Source: Methanoregula sp.
GTDB taxonomy: Archaea; Halobacteriota; Methanomicrobia; Methanomicrobiales; Methanospirillaceae
Reading direction: 5' to 3'
Length of the DNA stretch: 37,696 nucleotides
Assembly (NCBI GenBank): GCA_022711635.1
Contig: JAKLEQ010000008.1
Span: 1 to 37,696 of the forward strand
A program made the position numbers and the translations under genes. Numbering within the stretch: position 1 is the stretch's first letter; each line of letters begins with the position of its first letter. The notes below the pieces were generated by a model, which worked only from the letters and a program-made list of their open reading frames with translations, made no database searches and was not told the DNA's origin. Shown here one piece after another: positions 5,933-31,590 of this stretch.

Positions 5933-6118
5933 TTACTTCCGGGCGGTGAGGTCTTCGATCTCCGCAAGGACCGGGGCGATGGTCTTTGAGTTGATTGAAC
6001 GGCGCAGGATCGCTGCGAGCTTCCTGCAGTAGTGGATGTGGGTGAGCTGGAAGCTGACGATTAACCCGAAACAGAAGGTCGTCAGTGCGATCAGGCAGTA
6101 ACTGATGACATCAACCAT
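5933..6118 (-). CDS. small one-helix membrane protein B
   Basis: 61 residues. One hydrophobic segment at about residues 4-27 (SYCLIALTTFCFGLIVSFQL) is followed by a basic junction (HYCRKLAAILRRS) and a short acidic tail (APVLAEIEDLTARK). It lines up along its whole length with the gene just upstream at 6121-6309: both have hydrophobic helix, Tyr plus basic patch, then a P-[IV]-[VL]-x-E-[LI] tail, so they look like tandem paralogues. Its ATG lies two bases after the stop of that gene, so translation is coupled. It lies downstream of the tungstate ABC operon on the same strand. I do not recognise the family; a small transporter-associated or regulatory membrane protein is only a guess. Confidence 0.7.
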   Translation of the reverse strand: MVDVISYCLIALTTFCFGLIVSFQLTHIHYCRKLAAILRRSINSKTIAPVLAEIEDLTARK

Positions 6119-6120
6119 GA

Positions 6121-6309
6121 TCAGGTCTCCCGTGCCAGTTCGTCTACGATCGGGACGGTCGAGTCCGCGTCAGCGCACTGTTGTGCGATGACCATGAACC
6201 TTTTTTTGTAATACTCCGTCAGGATAAGATATCCGAGGATCAGGCCGATGACAAATGTCATGAAGCCGATCCCGATATAGATCACCAGATCCATCATTAA
6301 ATCCGCCAT
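6121..6309 (-). CDS. small one-helix membrane protein A
   Basis: 62 residues. A hydrophobic helix at about 7-30 (contains IGIGFMTFVIGLILGYLIL) is followed by EYYKKRF and a soluble tail (STVPIVDELARET). GGAGG about 7 bases before the ATG (minus strand of 6317-6321) is a strong ribosome binding site. It is coupled to its paralogue at 5933-6118 through TGA-TC-ATG. It follows tupC by 74 bases, with a possible TATA box of its own between them, so it may be expressed both with and apart from the transporter. Family not recognised. Confidence 0.75.
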   Translation of the reverse strand: MADLMMDLVIYIGIGFMTFVIGLILGYLILTEYYKKRFMVIAQQCADADSTVPIVDELARET

Positions 6310-6358
6310 TATGCTGCCTCCGTGGGTTTCCCGAGTATATTAAATAAAGATAGCGGAG

Positions 6359-6367
6359 ATTTAAATA
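6359..6367 (-). promoter_or_regulatory. possible TATA box for the small membrane protein pair
   Basis: TATTTAAAT on the minus strand lies in the short gap after tupC. It would place the transcript start near 6336, leaving a leader of about 27 bases that includes the GGAGG site. A second AT-rich candidate at 6336-6346 is too close to include that site. Inferred. Confidence 0.4.
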
Positions 6368-6383
6368 CCTGTTGCAGTGCCTG

Positions 6384-7466
6384 TCACAGGTCCGGTATGA
6401 CGTGGATGGACGTCGCTTTGATGCAGGCGACAACATTCGTCCCCGTTGACAGGTCCAGGTCTTCGCAGGATTTTCTTGTCAGGAGGGCGCTCTGGGGTAC
6501 GCCGCCGCAATCCACCGTAACCCGGGTGAACGGCCCGAGAGGAGTCATCTTCGAAATCGTCCCCTTCAGGCAGTTGCGGGCGCTGCTCTGCGCCCCGGTC
6601 CCTGCAAGGCTCAGGGTCACATCTTCCGGCCGGATGCAGAGGCAGACCTTCGAATTCGGCTTCTCTTCCGTCACCGCCTGGAATCTGACCTGCCCGACTG
6701 CAATCGTCGCGAGGTTGTCCTCGCTGTTCTCGACAATTCCCCCGCGGATGGGCTCGATCCCGACGAACGAGGCAATCGCCCGGTTCACCGGATGGTAGAA
6801 GATCATGTTGAGATCGCCTGTCTGGACGAGTCGCCCGTCCATGACGACCCCGATCCGGTGGGCGAGGCGCTGCCCCTGGATCATGTCGTGGGTCGAGAGG
6901 ACCATGGTGGTCCTGAACTTCTTATTGATACGCAGAATCAGGTCTTCGATCATCTCTGCGTTCGTAGGGTCGAGGTTCGCGGTCGGTTCGTCGAGAAAGA
7001 GAATGTCGGGTTTTGTCACGATCGCCCGGGCAATGGCGAGCCGCTGCATCTCCCCCCCGGAGAGGGAGACGGCACGGCGCCCCGCAAGATGGGAGAGCCC
7101 GACGAGATCGAGGGCGGCTCTTACCTGTTCCCCGATCTCCCCGCGGGGGACCTTCCGGAACTTAAGGCCGGCCGCGACATTCTCCTCGACCGTTGTGTTC
7201 AAAACGGTGGGCTTCTGGAAGACCATCGCCATCTTCCGCCGGACCCTGAACCGTTCCTCCGGGTGACCATCGATCCGGGAATTGTCGATGGTGATCGTCC
7301 CTGCTGTCGGCATATCGAGGAGGTCGAGGAGGCGCAGCAGCGTGGTCTTCCCGCTCCCGGATGGACCGATCAGGGTGAAGATCTCCCCCTTCCGGATCTC
7401 GAGGCTGACACCATCGAGGATTGCCCGGCCGCCCACGCTGCGCGACAAGGCTTCCGCCCGGATCAT
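6384..7466 (-). CDS. tupC: tungstate ABC transporter ATP-binding protein with TOBE domain
   Basis: 360 residues. The nucleotide-binding domain has Walker A GPSGSGKTT (34-42), Q-loop FQKPT, signature LSGGE (135-139), Walker B ILFLDE (155-160) and the H-loop STHDM. After about residue 230 the chain continues with GIEPIRGGIVEN and, at the C-terminus, a TOBE-like domain (RNCLKGTISKMTPLGPFTRVTVD...) that in Mo/W transporters binds the oxyanion and can inhibit transport. The ATG at 7466 shares one base with the tupB stop (TGATG); a longer version starting at a GTG at 7493 would reach further into tupB and is less likely. It powers the TupB permease. Assignment to tungstate rather than molybdate rests on TupA. 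Confidence 0.92.
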   Translation of the reverse strand: MIRAEALSRSVGGRAILDGVSLEIRKGEIFTLIGPSGSGKTTLLRLLDLLDMPTAGTITIDNSRIDGHPEERFRVRRKMAMVFQKPTVLNTTVEENVAAGLKFRKVPRGEIGEQVRAALDLVGLSHLAGRRAVSLSGGEMQRLAIARAIVTKPDILFLDEPTANLDPTNAEMIEDLILRINKKFRTTMVLSTHDMIQGQRLAHRIGVVMDGRLVQTGDLNMIFYHPVNRAIASFVGIEPIRGGIVENSEDNLATIAVGQVRFQAVTEEKPNSKVCLCIRPEDVTLSLAGTGAQSSARNCLKGTISKMTPLGPFTRVTVDCGGVPQSALLTRKSCEDLDLSTGTNVVACIKATSIHVIPDL

Positions 7467-8191
7467 CAGACGGATCCTCCCATGGCCTGCCACTGCTCCT
7501 TCGAGAGGGTGGATGTGATGATGTTCATGACGATAACGACGATGAGGGCAATCGAGAGGAGGATGATCCCGAGCGCGATCGAGAAGCCGAAGTTGCCGAT
7601 CCCGGTCTCGAGCGTGATCGCGGTGGTCAGCACCCGGGTCGCCCCCCGGATATTCCCGCCGATCATCATGGCGACACCCACCTCGGAGATCGCCCGCCCG
7701 AAGCCCAGCACGATTGCGCTCAGGATGGCGAACCGGGCTTCCCTGACGATGGTTGCGATGCTCTGGAGTTCCGTCGCTCCCAGCGAGGTGAGCATGTCGC
7801 GGATATCCTTTCCCACCCCGGTTAAGGCCGAGATGAACAGCCCCATCATGATCGGGATGATGAGCACGGTCTGCCCGAGGATCATCCCCTCCGGCGTAAA
7901 GAGCAGGCCGAAGAACCCGAACGGCCCGGACCGCGAGATGAGGAGGTAGATGACGAGCCCGACAACGACTGTCGGCACTGAGTAGAGGGTCTGGATGACG
8001 ACGATCAGCGCACGTTTTCCGTGGAATTCCCGGAAATGGATCAGGCCCGCAATGGGGAGCGCAATCAACGCGGCAAGGAGCGTTGCGGAGAGAGAGATGA
8101 AGAGGGAGAGTGCGGCAATCTCGAAAACCTCTGGGTTGAGCGTGACGATCAGGTTGATTGCCTGGGAAATCCCGTCAAGAATTGCGTTCAT
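7466..8191 (-). CDS. tupB: tungstate ABC transporter permease
   Basis: 241 residues with about five or six hydrophobic segments. The cytoplasmic coupling (EAA) motif is clear: LGFGRAISEVGVAMMIGGNI near residue 165. TupB proteins are short permeases of this type that form a homodimeric membrane pore with TupC. It sits 134 bases after tupA and overlaps tupC by one base. The gap before it holds a hairpin and an internal AT-rich stretch, so the binding protein and the membrane parts may be expressed at different levels. Confidence 0.92.
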   Translation of the reverse strand: MNAILDGISQAINLIVTLNPEVFEIAALSLFISLSATLLAALIALPIAGLIHFREFHGKRALIVVIQTLYSVPTVVVGLVIYLLISRSGPFGFFGLLFTPEGMILGQTVLIIPIMMGLFISALTGVGKDIRDMLTSLGATELQSIATIVREARFAILSAIVLGFGRAISEVGVAMMIGGNIRGATRVLTTAITLETGIGNFGFSIALGIILLSIALIVVIVMNIITSTLSKEQWQAMGGSV

Positions 8192-8325: not shown

Positions 8326-9357
8326 TTATGTTGTCGTTGCAGCCGCTGCAGCGGTTGTCGCTGCCGCGGTGGCTGCAGGCTTGACATCTGTCGCCTGAGT
8401 GGTGTGGTCGCCGACCCAGCCTGCCGGAGCTTCGGGTACGGAGACGCTCATCGGGGTGAACAGCGACTTGCCGTACTTGTCTTTCCCGAAGTCTGCGATC
8501 TTGGTCTGGGTGTCGTCGGCAATCAGGAAGTTGACGAAGTTGTTCGCCATCTGGATCTTCTCGATGGGCTGCTTGTCGTTATAGACGGTCATGACGCTGT
8601 AGATATTCAGCAGGCTCTTGCCGGATGCCACCAGCGGGACGACCGAAAGGTTGGTCTTGTATGCAAGGTAGGTCCCTTCATCGGTCAGGGCGTACGCGTT
8701 CTTCTCGCTCGCCATCTGGAGGGTCTCTCCCATGCCCTTGCCGGCCTCGATATACCAGGCGCCGGACTTCTGGACGTTTGCAGAGTAGTTGTATCCCGCG
8801 CTCTTCCAGATATTCTGCTCTGCAGTGTGGGTACCCGATTTGTCGCCGCGCGAGACGAAAGCAACGCCGGCTGTCCCGTTCGTGCCCTTCACGATCAGGG
8901 TCGTGAACGCCGCTTCGGGCGCCATGTCCCTGATGCCCGCCGGATCATTTGCGGGTCCCACGATCTCGAAGTAGTTCGAGGCGAAGGAGCGCCGGTTCAG
9001 GCCGAATCCGTCCTTCATAAAAGCGAGTTCCTGCGAGGGCGAGTGGACGAGGAGGATGTCGGCATCGCCGGCTTTTGCAAGCTCGATCGCCTTGCCGGTG
9101 CCCTGCGACGTGATCTTTAAGTCAACGTTATACTTCTCCTCGAAGATGGGTTCGAGGTAGTTGAGCAGGCCGGTGTCATACAGGCTCGTTGTCGTCGCGA
9201 TGACAAGCGTTGACTTTTCTGCTGCTGCAGTTGTTGCGGCAGGTGCTGCGGTTGTCTCGGCCGGTGTCGCCGGCTGGCTTGTACATCCGCTGAATACTCC
9301 CATAGCAACGAGGAAGAATACGAGCAGAATCGTTGATAGTTTCAAGGAACCTCTCAT
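8326..9357 (-). CDS. tupA: tungstate-binding lipoprotein
   Basis: 343 residues from the chosen ATG. A lipoprotein signal ends in GVFSGCTSQ, so the mature protein is anchored through the cysteine outside the membrane. A Thr/Ala/Pro linker follows, then LVIATTTSLYDTGLLNYLEP, the TTTS signature of TupA-type tungstate-binding proteins, and DADILLVHSPSQE plus SRGDKSGTH, both typical of the fold. The last about 25 residues are a second Ala/Thr-rich tail, which is unusual. GGAAAGGA upstream fits the ATG at 9357 best; an ATG at 9363 adds two residues and a GTG at 9390 is less likely. The protein captures tungstate for TupBC. Confidence 0.93.
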   Translation of the reverse strand: MRGSLKLSTILLVFFLVAMGVFSGCTSQPATPAETTAAPAATTAAAEKSTLVIATTTSLYDTGLLNYLEPIFEEKYNVDLKITSQGTGKAIELAKAGDADILLVHSPSQELAFMKDGFGLNRRSFASNYFEIVGPANDPAGIRDMAPEAAFTTLIVKGTNGTAGVAFVSRGDKSGTHTAEQNIWKSAGYNYSANVQKSGAWYIEAGKGMGETLQMASEKNAYALTDEGTYLAYKTNLSVVPLVASGKSLLNIYSVMTVYNDKQPIEKIQMANNFVNFLIADDTQTKIADFGKDKYGKSLFTPMSVSVPEAPAGWVGDHTTQATDVKPAATAAATTAAAAATTT

Positions 9358-9401
9358 TATCATCAGTCCTTTCCAGAGAACATAGAGCACGATGATAGAT
9401 A

Positions 9402-10795: not shown

Positions 10796-12862
10796 ATGAC
10801 TGATGCAAAACTTGATTTGAAATACGTTCCGACCACGTGCCCGTACTGCGGTGTTGGCTGTGGCCTGAACCTTGTTGTCAAGGGAAACACGCTGGTGGGT
10901 GTTGAACCCTACAAGCGTTCCCCGATCAACGAAGGCAAGCTCTGCCCCAAGGGGGAGACCTGCTGGGAGACCGTCCAGAAGCCGGGTCGGCTGACAAAGC
11001 CGCTGATCAAGAAAGATGGCAAGTTTGTCGAGGCCTCCTGGGACGAAGCCCTTGACCTGATCGTGAAGAAATTTACGGAGATCTACCAGGCCGGCGGCCC
11101 CAAGGCGCTGGGCTTCCAGACCTCCTGCCGTACGGTCAACGAGGACTGCTACGCACTCCAGAAGTGGGCACGCTGCGGATTTCTGACAAATAACGTCGAC
11201 AACTGCGCCCGTATCTGCCATGGACCTTCCGTTGCCGGTCTCTCGCTCTCGTTCGGGTCCGGCGCAGCCACCAATCCGTTCGAGGATGTACTCAACTCCG
11301 ACCTGATCGTCATGTGGGGCTCCAATGCCGTCGAAGCCCACCCGCTTGCCGGCCGCCGGGTCATGCAGGCCAAGAAAAAGGGCATCCCGATCATTGTTGT
11401 CGACCCGCGGCTCTCCGCCACCGCACGGCTCGCAGATGACTGGATCCGGTTCAACCCGTCGACCCACATCGCGCTCGCCAACAACATGATGTACCACATC
11501 ATCAAGGAAGGCCTCGAGGACAAGGAGTTCATCAAGGAGCGTACGAAAGGCTTCGATGACCTCAAAAAGACGGTCGAGAAGTATGCTGACGCCACGAATA
11601 TCCACGGTGTCCCGCAGGAGAAGGTCAGGGAGTTTGCCCGCAGGTATGCAACCGCAAAGAACGCGGTCATCATCTACTGCCTCGGCATCACCGAGCTGAC
11701 CACCGGGACCGACAACGTCCGGTCGATGGGCAACCTCTCGCTCTTAACCGGCAACATCGGGCGCCCGGGTGTGGGTGTCAACCCGCTCCGCGGCCAGAAC
11801 AACGTGCAGGGCGCCTGCGATATGGGCGCATACCCGAACGTCTTCTCCGGCTACCAGGCGGTGGCAGTCCCCGACAACCGGGCAAAGATGGAGAAGGGCT
11901 GGTTCCTGAAAGAGGGCTCGCTCCCTGACTGGTATGGCGTGACCTTAACCGAGCAGATCAACCAGGCCGGCGACCCGATCAAGGCAATGTACTTCCTCGG
12001 CCTGAACCCGACGGTCTCTTACCCCGACTCGAACCATGTCCGGGCCCAGCTGCAGAAGCTCGACTTCTGCGTCATGCAGGATATCTACTGGAACGAGAGC
12101 TGCGAGTTCGCGGACGTCGTACTGCCCGGCACCTGCTTTGCCGAGAAGGACGGCACGTTCACGAGCGGCGAGCGCCGTGTCAACCGCGTCCGGAAGGCTG
12201 TCGATGGCCCCGGCGAGTCGAAGTACGACTGGGAGATCATCAGCCTGCTCGCGAAGAAGATGGGCCTCAAGGGATTTGACTGGAAGTCTGCAAAGGACGT
12301 CTGGGATGACATGCGTGCAGTCACCCCCGGCCAGTTCGGTGTGACCTACGAGAAGATCGAGAAACCCGAGGCAATCCACTGGCCTTGTCCGACCATCGAG
12401 CACCCGGGGACGCCGATCCTCCATATCGGGAAGTTCTCCGCGGCGGATGGCAAGGGCACCATGTTCGGCCTCGAGTACCGCCCGCCGGCAGAAGTAGCCG
12501 ATGCGGAGTACCCGTTCACGCTCATGACCGGTCGTGTGATCTTCCACTACCACACGAGGACCCAGACCGACCGCTCCCCGACTTTGCACTACGAGGTGCC
12601 CGAGAACTACGTCCAGATGAACACGCAGGACGCAAAGGAGCTCGGGGTCAAGAACCTCGAGAAGATCAAGGTGACGAGCCGCCGCGGCGAATCCATCGCC
12701 ATTGCGCGGGTAAGCGAGGACGTCGCCCCGAAAGTCATGTACATGCCCATGCACTTCTACAAGGGTGCAAATCAGCTCACCAACACCGCGCTCGACCCGC
12801 TCTCCAAGATGCCGGAGCTCAAACACTGTGCCGTCAAGGTTGAGAAGATCACGGAGGCATGA
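10796..12862 (+). CDS. fdhA: F420-dependent formate dehydrogenase, alpha (catalytic) subunit
   Basis: 688 residues. The N-terminal [4Fe-4S] site is CPYCGVGC...LCPKG (C15, C18, C22, C50), with the electron-relay lysine two residues later. The Mo/W ligand is cysteine in NCARICHGP (C141), not selenocysteine. GSNAVEAHPLAGRR and TGNIGRPGVGVNPLRGQNNVQGACDMG bind the two pyranopterin guanine dinucleotides; ADVVLPGTCFAEKDGTFTSGERRVNRV is characteristic of the family. The C-terminal part (about 570-680) is the dinucleotide-binding beta-barrel. It oxidises formate to CO2 and passes electrons to FdhB. In Methanomicrobiales FdhAB can also feed heterodisulfide reductase directly. It shares an ATGA overlap with fdhB. 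No formate transporter gene is adjacent. Confidence 0.97.
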   Translation: MTDAKLDLKYVPTTCPYCGVGCGLNLVVKGNTLVGVEPYKRSPINEGKLCPKGETCWETVQKPGRLTKPLIKKDGKFVEASWDEALDLIVKKFTEIYQAGGPKALGFQTSCRTVNEDCYALQKWARCGFLTNNVDNCARICHGPSVAGLSLSFGSGAATNPFEDVLNSDLIVMWGSNAVEAHPLAGRRVMQAKKKGIPIIVVDPRLSATARLADDWIRFNPSTHIALANNMMYHIIKEGLEDKEFIKERTKGFDDLKKTVEKYADATNIHGVPQEKVREFARRYATAKNAVIIYCLGITELTTGTDNVRSMGNLSLLTGNIGRPGVGVNPLRGQNNVQGACDMGAYPNVFSGYQAVAVPDNRAKMEKGWFLKEGSLPDWYGVTLTEQINQAGDPIKAMYFLGLNPTVSYPDSNHVRAQLQKLDFCVMQDIYWNESCEFADVVLPGTCFAEKDGTFTSGERRVNRVRKAVDGPGESKYDWEIISLLAKKMGLKGFDWKSAKDVWDDMRAVTPGQFGVTYEKIEKPEAIHWPCPTIEHPGTPILHIGKFSAADGKGTMFGLEYRPPAEVADAEYPFTLMTGRVIFHYHTRTQTDRSPTLHYEVPENYVQMNTQDAKELGVKNLEKIKVTSRRGESIAIARVSEDVAPKVMYMPMHFYKGANQLTNTALDPLSKMPELKHCAVKVEKITEA

Positions 12863-14118
12863 AGATGGCAAAGAAAGGCGATATGCTCTACGCATGGACC
12901 AATGACGCCAATATCAAGGAGAAAGCAGAACTCGGCGGCGCGGTCACGGCACTCTGGAAGTACGCCCTCGAGTCAAAGACCGTCGATGCAGTTCTGGCGG
13001 TCACCAAAGGTGTCGACCTGTATGATGCCAAGCCCGTCATCATCACCGATCCCAAGGACCTTGCAAAGACGGCCGGCTCGCTCCACTGCGGCACGCTGCT
13101 GATGGCAAAACTCATCAAGAAATACTTCGATGGCGCCGAGAATGTGAAGATCGGCGTTACCGTCAAGGGCTGCGACATGATGGGCATGTACGAACTTGCC
13201 AAGCGCAAGCAGATCAACCTTGACAATGTCATCATGATCGGCGTGAACTGCGGCGGCTCGGTCAGCCCTGTCAGTGCCCGTAAGATGATCAAGGAGAAGT
13301 TCGGTGTCGATCCCGAGAAGGTTCACAAGGAAGAGATCGATAAGGGCCAGTTCATCATCGAGTACGAGGGTGGGCACAAGGGCATCTCCGTCGATGAACT
13401 CGAAGAGGCCGGCTTCGGCCGCAGGACCAACTGCCGCCGGTGCAAGCTGAAGATCCCGCGGCAGGCCGACCTCGCCTGTGGGAACTGGGGTGTTATCGGG
13501 GAAAAGGCCGGAAAGGCAACGTTCGTCGAGGTCTGCTCTGAGAAGGGTGCAAACCTCGTCTCCGGCGCCGTCAAGGCCGGCGTCCTCGCAACCGAGGCAG
13601 CAAACCCCAAGGGACTCGAGATCCGGGCCAAGGTTGAGGGTGCAATGCTGAAGCTCGGCGACAAGTGGCGCAAGAAGAACTTCGAGGCCCTGGGCGAAGG
13701 AAAAGATCGTCTCAAGAAGATCATGGCCGAGACCGCACGGTGCATCAAGTGTTACGGCTGCATCGATGCCTGCCCGATCTGTTACTGTGTCGAGTGCACG
13801 ACCAAGAACCCGAAGTATGTCGCGCCCGGCTACCTGCCCGTGGACTTCATGTTCCACCTGATCCGGTACGCCCACATTGCCGACTCGTGCGTCAACTGCG
13901 GCCAGTGCGAAGAGGTCTGCCCGGCCGAGATCCCGAACGCGCTCTTCATGCACTCCCAGCAGGTCGAGCTGGAGAAGATGTTCGGGCACATGCCGGGCGT
14001 CGACATGTCACTCCCGCTCCTTGCCATGGTCGAGGAGAAAGAGGAACGCGCCCGGCTCAACAACACCGGCAGCGACATGATCTACGAGAACGTCTTTTCC
14101 CCCGTCTCAAAGAAGTAA
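12859..14118 (+). CDS. fdhB: F420-dependent formate dehydrogenase, beta subunit
   Basis: 419 residues. The N-terminal and central part (about 1-260) is the FrhB/FdhB flavin- and F420-binding fold, with GAVTALWKYALE, KGCDMMGMYEL and the NCRRC plus DLACGNWGV cluster-binding region. Two C-terminal ferredoxin motifs follow: CIKCYGCIDACP (C295-C305) and CVNCGQCEEVCP (C344-C354). It moves electrons between the FdhA chain and coenzyme F420 through FAD. The start overlaps the fdhA stop (ATGA), so the two are coupled and made in equal amounts. A T-rich stretch ends the operon. Confidence 0.97.
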   Translation: MKMAKKGDMLYAWTNDANIKEKAELGGAVTALWKYALESKTVDAVLAVTKGVDLYDAKPVIITDPKDLAKTAGSLHCGTLLMAKLIKKYFDGAENVKIGVTVKGCDMMGMYELAKRKQINLDNVIMIGVNCGGSVSPVSARKMIKEKFGVDPEKVHKEEIDKGQFIIEYEGGHKGISVDELEEAGFGRRTNCRRCKLKIPRQADLACGNWGVIGEKAGKATFVEVCSEKGANLVSGAVKAGVLATEAANPKGLEIRAKVEGAMLKLGDKWRKKNFEALGEGKDRLKKIMAETARCIKCYGCIDACPICYCVECTTKNPKYVAPGYLPVDFMFHLIRYAHIADSCVNCGQCEEVCPAEIPNALFMHSQQVELEKMFGHMPGVDMSLPLLAMVEEKEERARLNNTGSDMIYENVFSPVSKK

Positions 14119-16176: not shown

Positions 16177-16228
16177 CCGGGAAATATCAATGGGACTTCG
16201 AAAAAGCATCGCGACTCCCGTTTCCAAG

Positions 16229-22271: not shown

Positions 22272-22355
22272 CAGAAGTACTTGGTAATCCCATCCTATAA
22301 TCGTTCGTACTAAGGCAACATCTATCCATTAACGCGCCATAGGATGATAGGAAAT

Positions 22356-23222: not shown

Positions 23223-23225
23223 TAA

Positions 23226-23567: not shown

Positions 23568-24368
23568 TTATTTTTTCATGAAGAGGTGGCCGTAAACGGT
23601 CGCTCCCTTCCGCTTGGGGTGGCGTTCGCCAAGATCGCCGGTGTAATCGATGAACGTTGCCTTGGTGCCATCAACTTCGAGATCAACCTCGCCGGACGGT
23701 TTGTAACCGGGCATCATGACGTTGATCTTTCCGAAGACGTAGATCTCGCCCTTGACCAGCTGGCCGCCGACACGGCGGTTCGCGTTGCCCTTGAGGATGA
23801 TCTTGCCGCCTTCCATGTGGGTGCCGAGGTGGATATCGACGTCTCCGTCGATGATCATCGTGCCGCCGGTCATGAAGCTGGCCACATCGGATCCTGCGTT
23901 CCCTTTGACCCGGAGGACGCCGCCCGACATGCCGCGCCAGTCGCCACGGTAGGCAGCGCCGAGGTAGTTCCCGGCATTGCCGTTGATGGTGAACTCCCCG
24001 CCCGCCATCGCGAGGGCGCAGAAGGAGTGGACATCGCCGTTGACCGTAAGCTTGCCGCCCTTCATCCAGCTGCCGGTGTACATATCACAGGCAGAGTTCA
24101 CAACGACTTCTCCGGCGGTCATCTTTGCGCCGATGTACTTCATCTTCGTGCAGTCGCCGTTGATGACGATCTTCGTGTCGGCCGCGGTTGCGCCGGCGTT
24201 TCCGGCAATGGTGAAGAACTCCCCGAGCGTGGAGATCTCCTTCCCCTGGTATGCTCCCATTTTGGCGATCTGTTCGGCCGTCTTGCCGGCGAACGCGTCA
24301 GGGTTGACATTCTCGCATTCCAGGTAGAGGTCCGGTACTTGCTTTACCGTCAGTGTAACAGTTTCCAT
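23568..24368 (-). CDS. fwdC: formylmethanofuran dehydrogenase subunit C
   Basis: 266 residues from the ATG at 24368, preceded by a GAGGCGAAGAGA ribosome site; longer versions reach into fwdA. It is built of repeated GGxxxxxGxAG units (GGKLTVNGDVHSF, GGEFTINGNAGNYLG, GGVLRVKGNAGSDVA, GGTMIIDGDVDIHLG, GGKIILKGNANRRVG), the right-handed beta-helix of the GltS/FwdC C-terminal fold. FwdC packs against FwdA and FwdD and helps form the channel for formate between the two active sites. It lies 10 bases after fwdA. Confidence 0.95.
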   Translation of the reverse strand: METVTLTVKQVPDLYLECENVNPDAFAGKTAEQIAKMGAYQGKEISTLGEFFTIAGNAGATAADTKIVINGDCTKMKYIGAKMTAGEVVVNSACDMYTGSWMKGGKLTVNGDVHSFCALAMAGGEFTINGNAGNYLGAAYRGDWRGMSGGVLRVKGNAGSDVASFMTGGTMIIDGDVDIHLGTHMEGGKIILKGNANRRVGGQLVKGEIYVFGKINVMMPGYKPSGEVDLEVDGTKATFIDYTGDLGERHPKRKGATVYGHLFMKK

Positions 24369-24378
24369 TCTCTTCGCC

Positions 24379-26088
24379 TCACGCCTTGGTTGCATCCACC
24401 GTGATGATGTGCTGATGCGGGGCATAGCTCTCGGGGACCGGGTAGTTGTTCTCGTTCACGCTGTAGTAGCGCAGGAACTTCTCCCGGACGTCGTGCATGA
24501 CCTGCTTGTTCTCCGGTACCTTCGCGTCCACCCAGAAGGTCTTCTTCTGGCCCATGTCGACGACTTTTCCGCCCTCGACACAGATCCTGCCGTCCTTGAA
24601 GAGGTACGCTGCGTTGCCAAAGGCTTTCTCGATTGCCGGGCCATCGGACGGGAACTTATCGGGATTGATGTCGTAGATGGCGATGTCGGCGTTCATGCCT
24701 GCCTTTAAGCCGCCGTAGTCCTTCATGAGGCCGAGGCACTTTGCCGGGCCTGCACGGGTCATCTGGGCGAGCTCGTAGAGGGTGATCTCGCGGTCGATGT
24801 TGGCGAGGTAGGTTGCCCCGATAACCTTATCCGCGTTCTTGAACGTGTTGAGGCGTTCGTCACGGACCTTCTTGGACATCAGCCACGAGTAAACCCGCGG
24901 GTACCGGGTGAATGGCCCTGCGTTCGGGTGGTCGGTGGTGATGAAGCAGCGCATCGGGTCCTTTGCCATGAGGGCGATCTCGAGACCGATGCACCATTGT
25001 TTTGCACAGACGGAGATGTTCGGGTCGTAGATGTACGGGACGACACCGGCAGCGGTCTCGAGCTCGACATCCACGTTGAACCACTTGAGGTGGTTGAGGC
25101 CGTGGAGGTGGTGTTCGAAAGGCCCGTCGGCAGTCATCGTGGTCGTCTCGTCCAGGGTCACGTTCCCGGTGTCGATGGTGATGTTCTTCTGCTTGTTGAC
25201 GTAGTCCATGACTTCCTTTGCCGCGGACTCGAAGTCGCCCCAGTTCGTTCCCTTATAGGAATGGAACTGCAGGTGGGTCGAGTGCATGACCTGCTCGCGG
25301 CCGAAGGTGTTCTTTGGCTTGACGCCTTCTGCGAGCTGCAGGGTCTCGATGGTTGTCTTGTAGTTGCCGGGGTTGCCGAGATCGTTCTGGTGGACATGCA
25401 TCGAGTGCGGGAGGCCAAGGTACTCGTTCGCTGTCATCAGGCCGGTCATGATCTCGGCCGGCGTGATGTCGAAGTACGGTACCGGGTCGTGGATGGTCAG
25501 GCAGTTCAGTCCCCAGGCCCAGGCTTCGGTGCCGCCGGGGTTGACGACCTTGACGCCATACCCCTTCGTCTGGCGCATCAGCCAGGAGATGTACGCCGCG
25601 GTGTTCTCGACCTCGTTGTTCTTGAGGTACTCCATGATGAACCAGTTGTTCCCGAGGACCGGGAGTGCCGCTTCATCGATGATCGGGGTATCGTGGATCT
25701 CCTCGTGGACGTGGCGGGCATAGAGCGGGGGCATTGCCGCTTCCATGGCGAAGGTGAACCCCATGCGGGCGTATTCGTACCCGGTCTTGAAGACCGTGGG
25801 GATCGACTTGCCGCCTTCGATACGGGTAATGCCGGGTTTCTTGTGGGAGTCGAAATGTTTGTCTTCGGGGCGGTACCAGCGGCCGGCGTTGACCTTGGGA
25901 CCGGCGACATGGGCGTGAACCTCGAGCGCACCGGCCATGACGGTCTTGTCCTTTGCGTCGATGACCTTTGCCGATGAGCTGACCTTCTCGACGATCTTCC
26001 CGTCTTTTACCGCGATGTCTTTCTTGTCGCCCTTGATCCCCTGGACCGGGTCAAAGACATGGCCGTTTTTGATGATGTATTCTGACAT
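24379..26088 (-). CDS. fwdA: formylmethanofuran dehydrogenase subunit A (formyltransfer site)
   Basis: 569 residues, normal length. It is an amidohydrolase-fold protein: GALEVHAHVAGPKVN holds metal ligands H58 and H60; KVVNPGGTEAWAWG holds the expected carboxylated lysine; HMHVHQND, TTDHPNAGPFTRYPRV and the late DIAIYDINPDKFP complete the site. It condenses formate made by FwdB with methanofuran at a binuclear metal centre. It starts directly after the fwdB stop, without a gap, and is followed by fwdC. The C-terminus ends in PHQHIITVDATKA. Confidence 0.97.
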   Translation of the reverse strand: MSEYIIKNGHVFDPVQGIKGDKKDIAVKDGKIVEKVSSSAKVIDAKDKTVMAGALEVHAHVAGPKVNAGRWYRPEDKHFDSHKKPGITRIEGGKSIPTVFKTGYEYARMGFTFAMEAAMPPLYARHVHEEIHDTPIIDEAALPVLGNNWFIMEYLKNNEVENTAAYISWLMRQTKGYGVKVVNPGGTEAWAWGLNCLTIHDPVPYFDITPAEIMTGLMTANEYLGLPHSMHVHQNDLGNPGNYKTTIETLQLAEGVKPKNTFGREQVMHSTHLQFHSYKGTNWGDFESAAKEVMDYVNKQKNITIDTGNVTLDETTTMTADGPFEHHLHGLNHLKWFNVDVELETAAGVVPYIYDPNISVCAKQWCIGLEIALMAKDPMRCFITTDHPNAGPFTRYPRVYSWLMSKKVRDERLNTFKNADKVIGATYLANIDREITLYELAQMTRAGPAKCLGLMKDYGGLKAGMNADIAIYDINPDKFPSDGPAIEKAFGNAAYLFKDGRICVEGGKVVDMGQKKTFWVDAKVPENKQVMHDVREKFLRYYSVNENNYPVPESYAPHQHIITVDATKA

Positions 26089-27414
26089 TTACGCACCTCC
26101 CTTTGCGAGGAGTTCGTCAACGCGGTTGTTGATCTTCGTCAAGACTTCCTCGTCCGTGAGCATGCCCTCGGGCGGCTCGACAACTTTCCTCGTCTCGATA
26201 GGGACGTTGTCCATACGATAGGCGCATCCGCCCACTTCGACGCCGACCATCGCGACCGGGATGTGGACATCCGAGATCTCGGTCGTGCAGTTGATGTGCG
26301 GGTCGATGGTGACGGTCGGTTTCTTGGAACTGCTGATCATTGCATTGATCGGGAAATGGGCCCCAGGATCGGTCGCGATGTAGAAGCAGGCCTCGACCTC
26401 GTTGCGGTTTAAGAGGTCGACCGAGGTTGTCTCGCCGGTCTGGTGCCGGGCCTGGTCCCTGCGGGAGAGATCGACGGCATACGGGAACCCGTACTGCCAG
26501 CCGAGAACCTGCCCGGAACCGGTGACGTTCCAGTGCCCGCGCATCGCCATGATCACGAATTTTGTGAAATCGTTCATGTCGCGGGTCAGGCAGATCGCCT
26601 CATCGATGTTATGGTTCCTGCCCATGGTGTGGGTAAGCCCCATGCCGAAGAAGATGATGCCGAACCGGCCGCCCTTGAGTTCCTCGACGACCTCGTAGAT
26701 CTTTTCCTTCGGGACTCCGCCAACCGTGTCCGGGAGGGCTTCGCCGCGGGCTGCGGTGCGGAATGCATCCAGGAGTTCGTAGTCAAAGCCCTGCTGGACC
26801 TGGATGAACGTATCAGCGCATTTCGCCGTGTCCGTGTAGCGGCAGTCCACGCAGTAAATCTTCCGGCCCTTGTGCCCCTTGACGGTGAAGAAGCCGCGGG
26901 GGAAGATCGAGTACCGGGACATATGGCGGGGGTGGGCGTGTGCCGGGTTGCAGCCCCAGAAGATGACCCGGTCGGCACGGTTCTTGACCTCACCGAGCGT
27001 GCAGCTCGGGACACCGACATCCTCGATGGCGATCAGGGACGAGCCGTGGCAGACCGTCGCACAGTTGTCGACGATACCGCCGACCTTCTCGGCGATCTCG
27101 TGCCCGATGGACATCGCCTGGCAGCTCGTGGATGCCCAGCCGTACATCAGGGTCTTTCTTGACTTGACCAGCATCTTTGCGGTCCAGTCGATCGCTTCGT
27201 CATACGATACTTCCTTGTACGTCCCGTCCGGCTGGCGCATTCGCGGGCGCTTGACCCGGCCCGGGAGCCTCTGATGGTTGAACTTCTCGGCGCCGATCGC
27301 ACACGCGTTCTTGACAGAGAGGATCGTCTTGTTATCATCGGACACGGTGACAACGACGTCGTCGCAGAGGGTTCCGCAGAACGGACAGATAACATCGGTT
27401 ACATCTTTTGGCAT
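26089..27414 (-). CDS. fwdB: formylmethanofuran dehydrogenase subunit B (Mo/W catalytic)
   Basis: 441 residues. It has a [4Fe-4S] motif CPFCGTLCDD...CAIG (C10, C13, C17, C38) and the metal ligand cysteine in NCATVCHGSS (C122); there is no in-frame stop at that place, so it is not a selenoprotein. GWASTSCQAMSIGHEIAEKVGG, WGCNPAHAHPRHMSRY and FFGMGLTHTMGRNHNIDEA are family signatures. It reduces CO2 to formate at a bis-pterin Mo or W centre. The gene alone does not tell W (Fwd) from Mo (Fmd); the symbol is used generically. It sits 6 bases after fwdD. Confidence 0.96.
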   Translation of the reverse strand: MPKDVTDVICPFCGTLCDDVVVTVSDDNKTILSVKNACAIGAEKFNHQRLPGRVKRPRMRQPDGTYKEVSYDEAIDWTAKMLVKSRKTLMYGWASTSCQAMSIGHEIAEKVGGIVDNCATVCHGSSLIAIEDVGVPSCTLGEVKNRADRVIFWGCNPAHAHPRHMSRYSIFPRGFFTVKGHKGRKIYCVDCRYTDTAKCADTFIQVQQGFDYELLDAFRTAARGEALPDTVGGVPKEKIYEVVEELKGGRFGIIFFGMGLTHTMGRNHNIDEAICLTRDMNDFTKFVIMAMRGHWNVTGSGQVLGWQYGFPYAVDLSRRDQARHQTGETTSVDLLNRNEVEACFYIATDPGAHFPINAMISSSKKPTVTIDPHINCTTEISDVHIPVAMVGVEVGGCAYRMDNVPIETRKVVEPPEGMLTDEEVLTKINNRVDELLAKGGA

Positions 27415-27420: not shown

Positions 27421-27828
27421 TCACTTCCGGATAAGGCCGCAGGCGTCCTGCACGACCTCGATTGCGCCCATGATGCGCTCGTTCGTGGCGACCTCAACGT
27501 CCACCGGGAATCCCTTGAAGCAGGGCTCTCCCGTGGAGAAGGTGTAGGCCGGGACGATCCGGTTTGCCCAGGGTCCCATGGGGATGTGGGCAAGGCCCGG
27601 GACAAGGTCTTCGCGGGTCTCGACCGCTTTTACAATAACGCTGCCGACAGAGCTCGTCACCTTGACGTTCGTGTTCTTCCATGCACCCAGTTTCTTGAAA
27701 TCCTCCGGGTGCATGTGGATGATCGTACAGGCATCGAAGTATTTCTTGGATGTCTTGCCTGCCTCCATGCCGACACCCTGCTGGATGGTACGGCAGGTGA
27801 TCAGGTTCAGGGTAATTTTGTTTGCCAT
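27421..27828 (-). CDS. fwdD: formylmethanofuran dehydrogenase subunit D
   Basis: 135 residues. It begins ITLNLITCRTIQQGVGMEAGK and contains YFDACTIIHMHPEDFKKLG and GPWANRIVPAYTFSTGEPCFKGFPVDVE, typical of FwdD, the separate chain that equals the C-terminal pterin-dinucleotide-binding domain of FdhA-type enzymes. With FwdB it completes the cofactor pocket. It follows the ferredoxin gene by 39 bases and precedes fwdB by 6. Confidence 0.94.
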   Translation of the reverse strand: MANKITLNLITCRTIQQGVGMEAGKTSKKYFDACTIIHMHPEDFKKLGAWKNTNVKVTSSVGSVIVKAVETREDLVPGLAHIPMGPWANRIVPAYTFSTGEPCFKGFPVDVEVATNERIMGAIEVVQDACGLIRK

Positions 27829-27867: not shown

Positions 27868-28125
27868 TTATGCAAGAGACTTCGCTTCGCCACTCCCTGA
27901 GAGTCTGATGACATCGTACGGGCAGGCTTCGACACATACGCCGCATCCTGCGCAGAGTTCCGATTTGAAATCGACACTGACAGAAACGCCATCCCGGACC
28001 TCGTAGATCTTCTCCTTGGTCACCGGGTCGAGCGTAAAGAGCTCGAGGGCATTCACCGGGCATGCAACAACACAGTTGTTGCATCCGGTACATCGTTCCG
28101 TGTTAACATGCACTGAAAACGCCAT
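27868..28125 (-). CDS. fwdG: two-cluster ferredoxin, FwdG-like
   Basis: 85 residues with two [4Fe-4S] motifs: CTGCNNCVVACP (from C12) and CAGCGVCVEACP. The spacer between them, about 35 residues, includes a strand-rich insertion (EKIYEVRDGVSVSVDF). It is first in the fwd operon, so the likely role is FwdG, the electron-feeding chain of the complex. No polyferredoxin (FwdF) or FwdE gene lies in the window; they may be elsewhere. The ATG follows a GTGATGTGA stretch, a GGTGAT-like ribosome site. Confidence 0.85.
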   Translation of the reverse strand: MAFSVHVNTERCTGCNNCVVACPVNALELFTLDPVTKEKIYEVRDGVSVSVDFKSELCAGCGVCVEACPYDVIRLSGSGEAKSLA

Positions 28126-28410: not shown

Positions 28411-29103
28411 TCAGGGTATCCCTTTTGATGTCTCCGGAAGATCGTCAGGTTTCCCGTTCCACCCAATCGATCCCCGGCGGATACTACAGACCCTATCCGC
28501 GATCTGCCGGCAATCGCTTCTCCGGTGCGTCACGATGATGCAGGGGATCTTCTTTTCGGTGATGAAGGACCGGATCAGGTCTTTGCCGGCTGCCGTGCTC
28601 TCCACGTCCAGCGCGGTGAACGGTTCGTCCAGCATCAGGAGATCGGGTCTCGTTGCGAGTGCCCGGGCAAGGGCGATCCGCTGCTTCTGTCCCCCCGAGA
28701 GGTTTCCGGCCTTCACGGTGGCAAGGGTACGGATGTCCAGCCGGTCCATCCACCGGGCCGCCTCCTCCGCGATACGGTGCTTCTCCCAGTGCCGGGCTTT
28801 CATGCCGTACGCGACATTCTCCGAAACGGAGAGGTGGGGGAACACGGCAGACCTCTGGAGGACATACCCGATGTTGCGGGTTTCAACCGGAAGAGAGATG
28901 CCCGCGGCGGAGTTGAAGAGTTCCCGGTCGCGGAGCCTGACCCGTCCATGGTCGGGAGCCAGCAACCCGGAGAGCATGTTGAGTATGGTCGATTTTCCCG
29001 CGCCGTTCTCTCCCATGAGGGCCAGAATCTCTCCCGGATGCACGAGGATTTTTGCATCGAGCGGGAAGTCCCGGAGCTGTTTGTTGAGGGTTGCCTCAAG
29101 CAT
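28411..29103 (-). CDS. modC: molybdate ABC transporter ATP-binding protein, no TOBE domain
   Basis: 230 residues. Walker A is GENGAGKST (31-39), signature LSGGQ (135-139), Walker B LLMLDE (155-160) and the switch VTHRRSD. The chain ends soon after the ATPase core (SIRRGSIGWNGKPDDLPE), so the C-terminal oxyanion-binding domain of ModC is missing, while TupC here has one. It overlaps modB by 8 bases. It powers molybdate uptake through ModB; a specificity for molybdate rather than tungstate is assumed from ModA. Confidence 0.88.
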   Translation of the reverse strand: MLEATLNKQLRDFPLDAKILVHPGEILALMGENGAGKSTILNMLSGLLAPDHGRVRLRDRELFNSAAGISLPVETRNIGYVLQRSAVFPHLSVSENVAYGMKARHWEKHRIAEEAARWMDRLDIRTLATVKAGNLSGGQKQRIALARALATRPDLLMLDEPFTALDVESTAAGKDLIRSFITEKKIPCIIVTHRRSDCRQIADRVCSIRRGSIGWNGKPDDLPETSKGIP

Positions 29104-29917
29104 GGCCCACCCCGGTTTTTGCGAAGAACCGGACCGCGATCATAATGGCAAACGAGATGATGACCAGCAGGATCGAGATGGTGATCCCGATGGTGAAATT
29201 CCCCTGCATGGCCCCGTAGACCGCGAGCGGCATGGTCTGGGTCACGCCGGGGAGGTTGCCGGCAAACATGATGGTCGCCCCGAACTCCCCGAGCGCCCGC
29301 CCGAACGTCATGACCGCCCCGGAGAGGAGCCCTCCGGCCGTCAGCGGGATGGTGATGGTGGCAAAGATCCTGAAGGGGGACGCCCCGAGGGTCCGGGCCG
29401 TCTGCTCGTACGCGGGATCGAGCTGTTCGAAGAGGGATTTCGCCTGCCGGAGGTAGAAGGGGGATGCAACGAAGATCTGTGCCATGATGACCGCAATGGT
29501 CGTAAAAGCGAGGGTGATCCCGAACAGGTTCAGGTACCGTCCGAGGAGCCCGACCCTCCCGTACAGGACGAGCAGCGCGAAGCCGGCGACTGCCGGGGGG
29601 AGCACGAGCGGAAGATCGATGAGGGTGTCCACGACGATCTTCCCGGGGTAGGTTGTCCGGCTGTGGACATAAGCGAAGGGCGTGCCGACAAGGATGACGA
29701 TGGCAAGGGAGATTAACGATGTGGAGAGGCTCAGGAACAGGGCGCTTTTGACTTCGGCGTCCATGAGGGATGACAGGAACAGGTCCGGCGTTGTCCGGAA
29801 GAAGAGCGCGACGATGGGGAGCGCGAGGTAGAGGGTGACCGAAGCGACCAGGACCGCTGCGCCGATGGTAGCAAGCGTGCGCCGGCCGGGATCCGGTCTG
29901 AAGGAGGGGCGGTTCAT
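29096..29917 (-). CDS. modB: molybdate ABC transporter permease
   Basis: 273 residues with about six hydrophobic helices and a cytoplasmic N-terminus (MNRPSFRPDPGRRT). FAYVHSRTTYPGKIVVDTLIDLPLVLPPAVAGFALL is split here into its landmarks: the DLPLVLPPAVAGFALL helix and the coupling motif TFGRALGEFGATIMFAGNLPG, both typical of ModB. It forms the membrane pore with ModC. GGAGG lies a short distance upstream of the ATG. The gap to modA is 52 bases. Confidence 0.93.
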   Translation of the reverse strand: MNRPSFRPDPGRRTLATIGAAVLVASVTLYLALPIVALFFRTTPDLFLSSLMDAEVKSALFLSLSTSLISLAIVILVGTPFAYVHSRTTYPGKIVVDTLIDLPLVLPPAVAGFALLVLYGRVGLLGRYLNLFGITLAFTTIAVIMAQIFVASPFYLRQAKSLFEQLDPAYEQTARTLGASPFRIFATITIPLTAGGLLSGAVMTFGRALGEFGATIMFAGNLPGVTQTMPLAVYGAMQGNFTIGITISILLVIISFAIMIAVRFFAKTGVGHA

Positions 29918-29969: not shown

Positions 29970-30947
29970 TTAAGAGACCGGCCGGAAGCCGTAGTCTTTC
30001 AGGATCTGCTGGCCGAGGTTGGGCGAGAGCATGAAGGTCTCGAATTCATTCGCGATCCCGCTGTTCTGTGTCTCCTTCATAATCGCGATCGAGTAGGTCT
30101 GGAGGTAGTTGTCTTTCTTCGGGATGCTGATGACAGTAAGAGTACCAGCCGGTGCTGCCGCATAGGTGGATTCGTAGACAATCCCGGCATCGACCTCCCC
30201 GAGCGAGACCTTGGTCGCGACCGCGGGTTCGGAGGTCTCGTAGGTCACGACATTGTCGAAAACCGACGTGTTCCACGCCGCCCCGTAGGTTGTTTTGCCG
30301 AGGTTTGCGAGAGCGGAATACGATGCGGTCCCGACCGGCACACTGTATGCAGCAAGGGCGATCTTCTTTCCCGGTGTTCCAAGATCGGAGAGTGATTTGA
30401 TGTTGCCGGGGTTGGACGCCGGGACGATGACGGTCACGTAGTTCGTGGTCAGCGGTTTTACCGAACTGTTGACGAAGTACCCCTCATTCTGCAGGGTCTT
30501 TGTGTAACTGTTGCTCGCGGAGATGAAGACGTCGGCATAGGCGCCGTTCTCGACCTGGGTCTTTAACGCCTGCGTGCCGTCAAGGTTGAAGGTCACGGAG
30601 TGGCCGGGGTACATCGCCGAGAACTGTTTCCCGATCTCTTTGGACACGCCCTTGAGGGAAGCGGCTGTATACACGATCAGGGTCTGGCCTGAGGGAGTGT
30701 ATTCCTGTGCGGGTTTTGCGGTGACCGTGGCAGCAGCGGTCGTCGTGACCGGCACAGCCGTTGTCAGGGCCGGGGTGAAAACGGCGGTCTCCGGGGCCGG
30801 CGTGGTGACGGGCGGGACGACGGTCTCAATGGCCGCCGTTGCGGCTGGCGGGGACGCGTTTGTCCCGGTGCAGCCAGCGAACAGCGCGGCTGCAAGGAGA
30901 ATGCAGAGGACAGTACCGGTGAAAAATCCGATGTGAGTTCTTTTCAT
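29970..30947 (-). CDS. modA: molybdate-binding lipoprotein
   Basis: 325 residues from the ATG behind AGGTGATC; a GTG at 30956 is an alternative. A lipoprotein signal ends LAAALFAGCTGT. A long Thr/Ala/Val-rich linker follows (about 25-85), then the ModA fold: LIVYTAASLKGVSKEIGKQF, VTFNLDGTQALKTQVENGAYADVFISAS, IALAAYSVPVGTASYSAL, and EVDAGIVYESTYAA. It captures oxyanion outside the membrane; ModA proteins of the archaeal type (also called WtpA) may bind tungstate as well, so specificity is open. Confidence 0.9.
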   Translation of the reverse strand: MKRTHIGFFTGTVLCILLAAALFAGCTGTNASPPAATAAIETVVPPVTTPAPETAVFTPALTTAVPVTTTAAATVTAKPAQEYTPSGQTLIVYTAASLKGVSKEIGKQFSAMYPGHSVTFNLDGTQALKTQVENGAYADVFISASNSYTKTLQNEGYFVNSSVKPLTTNYVTVIVPASNPGNIKSLSDLGTPGKKIALAAYSVPVGTASYSALANLGKTTYGAAWNTSVFDNVVTYETSEPAVATKVSLGEVDAGIVYESTYAAAPAGTLTVISIPKKDNYLQTYSIAIMKETQNSGIANEFETFMLSPNLGQQILKDYGFRPVS

Positions 30948-30985
30948 GGTGATCACCTGTTCAGGCTAAGGAATGGGCGTCCTTT

Positions 30986-30994
30986 CTTATAAAT
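30986..30994 (-). promoter_or_regulatory. TATA box of modABC
   Basis: TTTATAAG on the minus strand lies about 40 bases before the modA ATG and predicts a leader of about 15 bases with the AGGTGATC site. A perfect inverted repeat lies 30 bases further upstream. Confidence 0.5.
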
Positions 30995-31020
30995 CATTTT
31001 TTTTAATCTTTCAGAAAGTT

Positions 31021-31033
31021 AATTATTATAATT
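31021..31033. promoter_or_regulatory. inverted repeat upstream of modA
   Basis: AATTATTATAATT is a perfect 13-base palindrome around a central T, about 30 bases beyond the modA TATA box. Being pure A/T it could be chance in a very AT-rich stretch. Candidate operator only. Confidence 0.3.
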
Positions 31034-31403
31034 TTACTATATTACCTACACTCTGGTTTTCCATCAACTACTCTTTAACTATTTGTGATTAATAAGTCCA
31101 AAGAGTCAATGAAAAATATTATAACTCCTGACAGCCAATCAGATGGTTGTCCTCTTGGATACGCACCAACCGGACACATGCACACACACTGGAAACACAC
31201 AAGGATTCGAGTACAGCAATGCATGAAACCTGGGAGGGGATGGTCAGGGACTTCCTCTCTCGTCATAATGCTTGCGCATCACCAGTGCACAACCTTCCCG
31301 CAACCCTTCTTTTTTCCCCATCGCTCGCACAGTCCCGGCGTCGTGTCTGTTCGCTTATCATCTCCGCTCTGGAAAAGTTCAGAAAAAAAGGGGAATCAAA
31401 GGA
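31034..31403. other. intergenic region between modA and the molbindin remnant
   Basis: The part up to about 31130 is AT-rich promoter sequence. The rest has a plus-strand frame from about 31216 (beginning MHETWEGMVRDFLSRHN) that runs over the molbindin remnant on the other strand; it is discussed among rejected items. I see no gene that I can support. Confidence 0.4.
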
Positions 31404-31590
31404 TTACTCCGTGCCGATCATGACTTCCGATCCCTTCATGATGGCAACAACTTCCTTTCCAACCTGCAGCTTCAGGATCTCTCCCACCGAAGGCTGCGGC
31501 CGGGAGACACTGCCCCGGCCGTGAATGGGAAGAACCTGACCTATGCAAACCCCCGGGAACCTGTTTTTTCTCGTTTGCGGTACAACCGTA
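31404..31590 (-). pseudogene. probable decayed molbindin (Mop/TOBE) gene
   Basis: On the minus strand, the frame that ends at 31404 closes with LQVGKEVVAIMKGSEVMIG and GTE, a close match to the C-terminal half of molbindin/TOBE domains. About 25 residues earlier, RKNRFPGVCIGQV resembles the N-terminal strand (xRNxxxGxV). The middle strand and loop (about 15 residues of the usual 67-70) are missing, and no start codon stands before the first strand in this frame. It lies on the same strand as modABC, 457 bases upstream of modA. The left limit is the stop; the right limit is approximate. A short functional Mop-like protein is possible but less likely. Confidence 0.55.

Follow-up and report, generated by a model that had tools for sequence, protein, structure and literature searches.

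The reduction of CO2 to methane begins with formylmethanofuran dehydrogenase (Fwd), which methanogens of the order Methanomicrobiales must all make. Published work is cited here by PubMed Central number. Fwd carries a sulfido/sulfhydryl ligand (PMC11656701). In Methylorubrum, FdhD is needed for both the tungsten (W) and the molybdenum (Mo) formate dehydrogenase (FDH), with separate MoeA copies for the two metals (PMC13197769), and Methanothermobacter too has FdhD (PMC3087415). YedE is reportedly split in two and linked to SelD in archaea, and for Campylobacter an effect of YedF/FdhU on the biogenesis of FDH has been stated (PMC5322559). A DsrE protein of Metallosphaera and TusA hand on the thiosulfate group as thiosulfonate (PMC4175335). 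Here we describe a block of Mo/W and sulfur genes in a 37,696-nucleotide contig of Methanoregula sp. (JAKLEQ010000008.1, positions 1 to 37,696; assembly GCA_022711635.1), hereafter the window. The block encodes a 414-amino-acid DsrE protein which we named DsrE3, and which differs from the Metallosphaera protein called DsrE3A by its authors (PMC4175335). Across relatives, the link of DsrE3 is to Fwd and MoeA and not clearly to Fdh. We consider it quite possible, though short of probable, that an accessory module for sulfane sulfur was recruited into what is otherwise a locus of Mo/W enzymes, the module adding to FdhD and not replacing it.

Gene neighbourhoods of dsrE3

The assembly that contains the window (G000) comprises 1.86 Mb in 189 contigs and is 77% complete. 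It was compared with genomes (G numbers) of its order (120), family (108) and genus (eight listed). Individual loci carry L numbers. The DsrE3 loci counted below were taken from a scan of an 84,980-species collection, which yielded 60 loci from the best 80 candidate stretches. Some genomes contribute several DsrE3 loci, and the scan and the G genomes are not independent of each other because they share members. Three loci are from Lokiarchaeota and one from Bathyarchaeota; the others are labelled Methanomicrobiales, Methanoregula(ceae), Methanolinea, Methanomicrobiaceae or Euryarchaeota. The nearest named records to DsrE3 of the window are from Methanoregula and Methanoregulaceae. A gene was counted as a neighbour within 10 kb of dsrE3. 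The truncated copies L055, L061 and L096 were included in these counts and excluded from the DsrE3 alignment and tree, a quick tree with SH-aLRT support only and a midpoint root.

In the clade formed by Methanoregula and its kin (the fwd-linked clade), fwd or moeA was found near dsrE3 in 34 of 37 loci, and in all 18 loci having at least 5 kb of sequence on both sides. The three unlinked loci (L056, L064, L069) have less than 3 kb on one side, and in L056 a fwdG-like gene lies directly upstream of dsrE3. The neighbours included moeA-PBP in 20/37 loci, the moeA3 type in 15/37 and fdhA in 10/37. For a chance estimate we used the seven DsrE3 copies on contigs longer than 1.9 Mb, the expectation being the contig share within 10 kb of fwdB. 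Six of the seven lie within 10 kb of fwdB while 0.17 were expected (P ~1e-9); this value is a guide only, since kinship was ignored and G017 contributes two adjacent copies, of which one is broken. The second G017 copy (L027, 289-1534, minus strand) is split into two frames close to the intact one. Only one of the seven lies within 10 kb of fdhA (P 0.08; fdhA matches with E up to 1e-120, none in G017). That the sulfur genes stand beside Fwd more often than chance suggests that they help in building its sulfur-bearing metal centre. The initial annotation proposed that they supply cofactor sulfur for both FdhA and FwdB; among genomes carrying DsrE3, conserved neighbourhoods agree with the proposal for fwdB and moeA, and the linkage to fdhA is weak.

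Gene order varies between subclades, and dsrE3 is found beside three fwd types. A fwd operon lies on each side of dsrE3 in L016, L017, L052, L070 and L134, and a distant copy in G177 (33%) is also located between two fwd operons (L135). Other loci have a single fwd operon beside a yedE-type or dsrLP-type block (for example L046, L047, L048, L051), or moeA3 and moeA-PBP with the third fwd type (L059, L060, L063, L065, L066, L068, L071). fwd2-sagB is upstream of dsrE3 in L072, L075, L076 and L078, and dsrE3 is upstream of fwd2-sagB-fdhD-moeA2 in L074 (= L133) and L131. The genus-mate G127 has the order trmO-modABC-dsrE3-fwdGDBAC-sagB-fdhD-moeA2-moeA-PBP, in which dsrE3 to fdhD are on the same strand and successive match ends are at most about 215 bases apart. 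The segment dsrE3-fwdGDBAC-sagB-fdhD-moeA2 recurs in another genus (L074/L133). dsrE3 still adjoins fwd or moeA in loci where YedE, and in some also TusA, was not found. G041 carries both kinds, dsrE3 beside fwd without YedE (L026) and dsrE3 beside YedE without fwd (L035), as does Methanolinea UBA473 (L072, L083); such pairs suggest a division of labour between copies.

Some side observations concern these neighbourhoods. The fwd2 operon is often trailed by a SagB-type nitroreductase-like gene (L075 9162-9908, L131 15439-16182, and others). A conserved 58-amino-acid Cys-containing protein, possibly a regulator, is encoded between moeA3 and dsrE3 (L063 9346-9522, L066 9359-9535 and L053 9444-9620, all on the minus strand). 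In L016, the sulfur module and the OsmC-like gene are separated by a stretch (11619-14179) that encodes a double-cubane-cluster reductase, an activase of the acyl-CoA dehydratase type and a member of the C-GCAxxG-C-C family.

Several results weigh against a role of DsrE3 in Fwd maturation. There was no DsrE3 match in 100 of the 120 genomes of the order (20/120 have one), in 46/108 of the family and in 6/8 listed of the genus. The FdhA type of the window (E up to 1e-240) occurs in 34/120 genomes, 8 with and 26 without DsrE3; the Fwd2 type (E up to 1e-185) occurs in 49/120, of which 10 have a strong DsrE3 match and 39 do not. In the Methanolinea-type loci (clade C, 19 loci), whose order is yedE-dsrE3-tusA-like, fwd or moeA was near dsrE3 in 0/19. 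The fwd-linked loci form one clade on the DsrE3 tree, so the linkage may trace to a single event, in which dsrE3 was captured once into fwd loci and the gene order was reshuffled later. The 20 kb surrounding dsrE3 of G127 gave neither YedE nor TusA, so the import step cannot be local there. Cys214, the putative sulfur carrier of DsrE3 discussed below, is lost in 3 of 58 relatives (L056, L064 and the fwd-linked L078), and FdhD adjoins LarE, another possible sulfur donor.

The DsrE3 module is accessory. FwdB was found in 19/19 genomes searched, and a Pfam TusA match in 65/120 genomes of the order; among the 18 genomes in which DsrE3 matched strongly, 11 gave no such TusA match. Since DsrE3 is absent from 100/120 genomes and from 26/34 with the FdhA type, and TusA from 55/120, the sulfur genes are not generally needed, and a general requirement of them for FDH or Fwd can be set aside. 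The suggested co-occurrence of DsrE3 with fdhA is likewise weak at 8/34.

These counts bear on the view, which we regard as rather unlikely, that the module is a general sulfur (or selenium) uptake and relay system for the whole cell and that its position at Mo/W genes reflects inherited synteny and no shared function. It fits with the restriction of fwd-linked loci to one clade and with the 19 Methanolinea-type and 4 Lokiarchaeota/Bathyarchaeota loci, none of which has fwd or moeA within 10 kb (at least 5 kb on both sides in 10/19 and 1/4); fdhA is near dsrE3 in one clade C locus (L103). The Lokiarchaeota/Bathyarchaeota loci have yedE-tusA-dsrE3 in 4/4, with tusA-like and hyp119 in three. Inherited synteny is hard to reconcile with the reshuffled order within the fwd-linked clade, where DsrE3 nevertheless remains beside fwd or moeA, and a general module with the many fwd-linked loci that lack YedE and TusA while DsrE3 stays.

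FdhD and LarE in the lineage

FdhD (PF02634) was found in 117/120 genomes of the order and in 96/97 good ones, the misses being G000, G061 and G077. Six of seven genus-mates have it; G131 (84% complete) does not. G127, the only other listed genus genome with DsrE3 (2/8), has two FdhD matches. The observation that no FdhD is visible is true for the window, and G000 gave no match either, which at 77% completeness is not evidence that the organism lacks FdhD. Because the lineage carries FdhD, gaps in the assembly are the best explanation for its absence from G000. A missing gene is not to be inferred from an incomplete genome, and the argument built on missing FdhD fails: FdhD is present through the order and genus, and also inside the dsrE3-fwd2 block of G127 and L074/L133. 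The strong form of the earlier proposal, in which this organism would use the sulfur genes in place of FdhD, agrees with the lack of FdhD in the window and in G000, and is very improbable given the 77% completeness and 189 contigs, the lineage-wide FdhD and its place beside dsrE3 in G127; we rejected it. FdhD is the expected sulfurase in the lineage, and because G127 has the order dsrE3-fwdGDBAC-sagB-fdhD-moeA2, DsrE3 would work with FdhD and not instead of it. FdhD also lies about 1-2.2 kb from FdhA of the window type in G041, G019, G096, G168 and G150 (L117, L118, L120, L148, L149).

LarE, identified by TIGR00268 over its cut-off in L002, was found within 3 kb of FdhD in 11/20 loci and 8/16 further loci; these 36 FdhD loci were chosen by hand and are no random sample. 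In 15 of the 19 cases it lies less than 100 bases upstream of FdhD (L104-L107, L109, L114, L115, L121, L138-L142, L145, L147). All six genus-mates with an FdhD match have a LarE-linked FdhD copy, and LarE occurs near FdhD with or without DsrE3. From these positions LarE would be a candidate sulfur donor to FdhD, and a more general one than DsrE3. LarE-FdhD pairs often have a PP-loop gene on their other side, which we read as TtuA-like. No paper of the library searched names both LarE and FdhD, though the link may have been published elsewhere.

LarE might thus feed FdhD, and hence Fdh and Fwd, with the DsrE3 module serving, for example, tRNA thiolation or thiosulfate/sulfite handling. The counts above argue for this alternative, which we still judge unlikely: the FdhD copy in the dsrE3-fwd2 block of G127 and L074/L133 has no adjoining LarE, the fwd2-sagB-fdhD-moeA2 locus of G097 (L153), which is without adjoining dsrE3, also has no LarE, and the hand-chosen loci limit the counts.

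DsrE3 and related sulfur and selenium systems

A structure model of DsrE3 was built from an alignment of 58 full-length relatives (pLDDT 88, pTM 0.90). In fold comparison of the model, residues 133-263 matched YchN (Z 15.8, root-mean-square deviation (rmsd) 1.8, 115 residues aligned), DsrE (Z 15.3, rmsd 3.0, 122 aligned) and TusD (Z 15.3, rmsd 2.9, 122 aligned), and residues 283-414 matched the DsrE-fold protein 2fb6 (Z 11.2, rmsd 2.9, 111 aligned). In the model, both of these parts adopt the DsrE fold. Evidence that the two are alike comes from this fold match, as their profiles, which align full length, gave a probability of just 1.2%. The first 130 residues shared no Pfam family in 18 members and showed no profile likeness to the other thirds, and the fold list, which barely tests this part, gave no identity. 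The name triple-DsrE used in the initial annotation therefore holds for two thirds of the chain; the first was identified neither by sequence nor by fold. Cys214, kept in 55/58 relatives, is located in the middle DsrE domain, where a strand ends ahead of a helix. It is presumably the counterpart of the active Cys in DsrE/TusD.

Judged from the model, DsrE3 resembles TusBCD/DsrEFH fused into one chain. Features in common are the DsrE fold, seen here in the second and final thirds, the conserved cysteine in the middle domain and the adjoining TusA. In contrast to the three subunits of TusBCD/DsrEFH, DsrE3 is one open frame, with a first third without match. The TusA motif in relatives from the DsrE3 loci (n = 21) also differs. 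It is CPxC in 13/21 (CPYC or CPFC), SPxC in 7/21 and CPxP in 1/21 (CPLP, L044). In the seven with SPYC or SPFC (L053, L058, L062, L067, L069, L071, L073), the first cysteine is replaced and the second kept, and all seven fall in the moeA3-linked subclade of the DsrE3 tree. TusE/DsrC (PF04358), the usual acceptor, was found in 0/19 genomes with a positive E. coli control. The type II DsrEFH of cable bacteria shares synteny with tusA and yeeE/yedE, but consists of three genes mostly associated with reductive dsrAB (PMC13293266), whereas here one gene is fwd/moeA-linked in one clade. The sulfite-reductase-like protein of the window has sulfite-reductase domains and an extra ferredoxin part, as do group III methanogen Dsr-like proteins (PMC3448663), a likeness at the level of domains; unlike those, it is placed by its gene within 10 kb of dsrE3 in 16/37 fwd-linked loci. 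The FdhD sulfurase pathway has the same target enzymes and ligand, and FdhD is within the corresponding block of G127, while FdhD itself is outside the window. FdhT of Campylobacter is a YedE.

The selenium module YedE-YedF likewise combines YedE with TusA-type and DsrE-type parts, archaeal split YedE lying beside TusA, and has a reported effect on FDH biogenesis (PMC5322559). It differs in that G000 has no SelD over cut-off (four matches, all below), the YedE halves of the window are below the TIGR04112 cut-off, its TusA has CPFC without CPxP, and fdhA and fwdB have no in-frame stop. Shared with it is the adjoining SelD in Lokiarchaeota and Bathyarchaeota. SelD (TIGR00476 over cut-off) follows the YedE-TusA-DsrE3 module in the Lokiarchaeota loci L082 (6619-7494) and L092 (10882-11835), and in the Bathyarchaeota locus L101 it is divergent from the module (3583-4497, minus strand); the fourth locus is a 3.6-kb contig. 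By gene position, these SelD neighbours would tie the module to selenium use in the two groups. Such a cell-wide selenium role also gains from the SelD-linked split YedE of archaea and from Methanococcus maripaludis, in which yedE and tusAD transcripts go up on selenium depletion, although selenium import was not demonstrated for any of the transporters deleted there (PMC11097638). In the order, SelD over cut-off was found in 1/120 genomes (G043, beside a single-domain DsrE and TusA), so selenium use is unlikely there; one clade C locus has a putative SelD-like match. The YedE-DsrE3 module looks like a chalcogen uptake-and-relay unit that was partly recruited to Mo/W loci, and in methanogens without SelD it would carry sulfur.

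The gene block and a proposed sulfur route

As shown in Table 1, the block is real and its gene calls stand. Families were judged against curated NCBIfam cut-offs, "below cut-off" denoting the best match only. MoeA, Mo/W importers and Mo/W enzymes occur together in these scans, as in a Mo/W cofactor locus. One minus-strand operon from 21525 to 18325 holds yedE in two halves, tusA, dsrE3, tusA-like and hyp119. Some earlier calls need qualification: an importer is present, with tungstate only its likely metal; the single YeeE/YedE gene is split in two; the TusA-like gene has a marginal Pfam match. The OsmC-like, helical, orphan and sulfite-reductase-like genes are additions to the initial annotation. 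Presumably a cysteine is the metal ligand of FdhA and FwdB, judging from a motif in their sequences. By analogy with Methylorubrum, metal-specific MoeA copies may explain the two MoeA genes. The listed TTG start of the OsmC-like gene is probably too far upstream, an ATG being at residue 32. Rfam and tRNA scans of the window gave no matches.

Table 1. Genes of the block at 6384-30956 of the window.
Feature	Position	Strand	Basis and remarks
ATP-binding cassette (ABC) ATPase with TOBE domain, tungstate/molybdate type	6384..7493	-	Pfam ABC_tran, TOBE; best NCBIfam WtpC, below cut-off
ABC permease, TupB-like	7466..8191	-	NF038017 over cut-off; TupB below (172 vs 320)
Substrate-binding protein, TupA-like	8326..9390	-	PF12849; TupA best, below cut-off (187 vs 400)
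fdhA, formate dehydrogenase alpha	10796..12862	+	TIGR01591 803.8 vs cut-off 666.25; no in-frame stop (no selenocysteine codon)
fdhB, F420-type beta subunit	12859..14118	+	PF04432, PF04422
MoeA-PBP (MoeA fused to PBP domain)	14168..16093	-	NF011068 551.1 vs cut-off 534; PF03453, PF00994, PF12727
Second MoeA	16190..17488	+	PF03453, PF00994, PF03454
OsmC-like protein	17557..18171	+	PF02566; OsmC_like_Se below cut-off
hyp119, 119-aa orphan, terminal gene of sulfur operon	18325..18684	-	Invariant CxEC; 10 aligned members
TusA-like protein, motif LTCTSLMIRLK	18681..18935	-	Pfam TusA only at E 0.017; homologues
DsrE3, single chain with at least 2 DsrE domains, Cys214 in middle one	18947..20191	-	PF02635; structure model; fold matches
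TusA, CPFC in place of CPxP	20251..20502	-	PF01206 57.3 bits, over cut-off; TTG start listed, ATG at residue 9
YedE/YeeE half, C-terminal part of seleno_YedE	20495..21007	-	PF04143; TIGR04112 positions 182-304, below cut-off
YedE/YeeE half, N-terminal part of seleno_YedE	21007..21525	-	PF04143; TIGR04112 positions 4-132, below cut-off
Conserved helical 190-aa protein, no function assigned	21699..22271	-	Near dsrE3 in 12/37 fwd-linked loci, there adjoining sulfite-reductase-like gene
Sulfite-reductase-like protein with ferredoxin insert	22344..23222	+	PF01077, PF03460, Fer4; best NCBIfam sulfite_red_C, below cut-off
fwdC	23568..24425	-	PF01493
fwdA	24379..26088	-	TIGR03121 over cut-off
fwdB, Mo/W catalytic subunit	26089..27414	-	TIGR03129 573.2 vs cut-off 327.8; no in-frame stop
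fwdD	27421..27828	-	PF01568; FwdD best, below cut-off
fwdG, ferredoxin subunit	27868..28125	-	Two Fer4 stretches
modC	28411..29103	-	PF00005; modC_ABC best, below cut-off
modB	29096..29917	-	TIGR02141 205.1 vs cut-off 182.6; TIGR01581 over cut-off
modA	29970..30956	-	TIGR01256 103.9 vs cut-off 62.5

Members of the hyp119 family come from Methanoregula-type and Lokiarchaeota loci. Its AlphaFold model (pLDDT 92) had no clear match in the PDB (none at E 0.001, best Z 4.8), which is not proof of a new fold. A relationship of hyp119 to FdhD was considered and rejected: the hhalign probability was 0.1 with an FdhD profile of just 2 sequences, and Pfam and PDB sequence searches were negative.

The following route is proposed from likeness and gene position. 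YedE would import a sulfur compound such as thiosulfate, and TusA and the TusA-like protein would accept the sulfane sulfur. DsrE3, as a one-chain TusBCD/DsrEFH-like protein, would carry it as a persulfide on Cys214 and, in the Mo/W-linked clade, would deliver it for maturation of the cofactor, with FdhD the most likely recipient. FdhD would then equip the metal of Fwd, and with less specificity that of Fdh, with its terminal sulfido ligand, and the sulfite left over from thiosulfate could go to the sulfite-reductase-like protein. In its most specific form, which we think doubtful, DsrE3 would be a dedicated persulfide donor for FdhD in Fwd maturation, so that sulfane sulfur taken up from outside, and not cysteine, could supply the W/Mo=S centre in methanogens, with the carrier derived from a YedE-TusA chalcogen-uptake module and fixed in fwd/moeA loci. 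A search of titles and abstract openings gave no paper linking formylmethanofuran dehydrogenase with DsrE, which does not show that such a link is unpublished.

In the literature consulted for this analysis we found no explanation of how the sulfido ligand is installed on the Fwd metal in methanogens. The dsrE3-fwd-sagB-fdhD-moeA block, present in two genera, provides concrete candidates for this step and points to a role of FdhD in Fwd in addition to Fdh.

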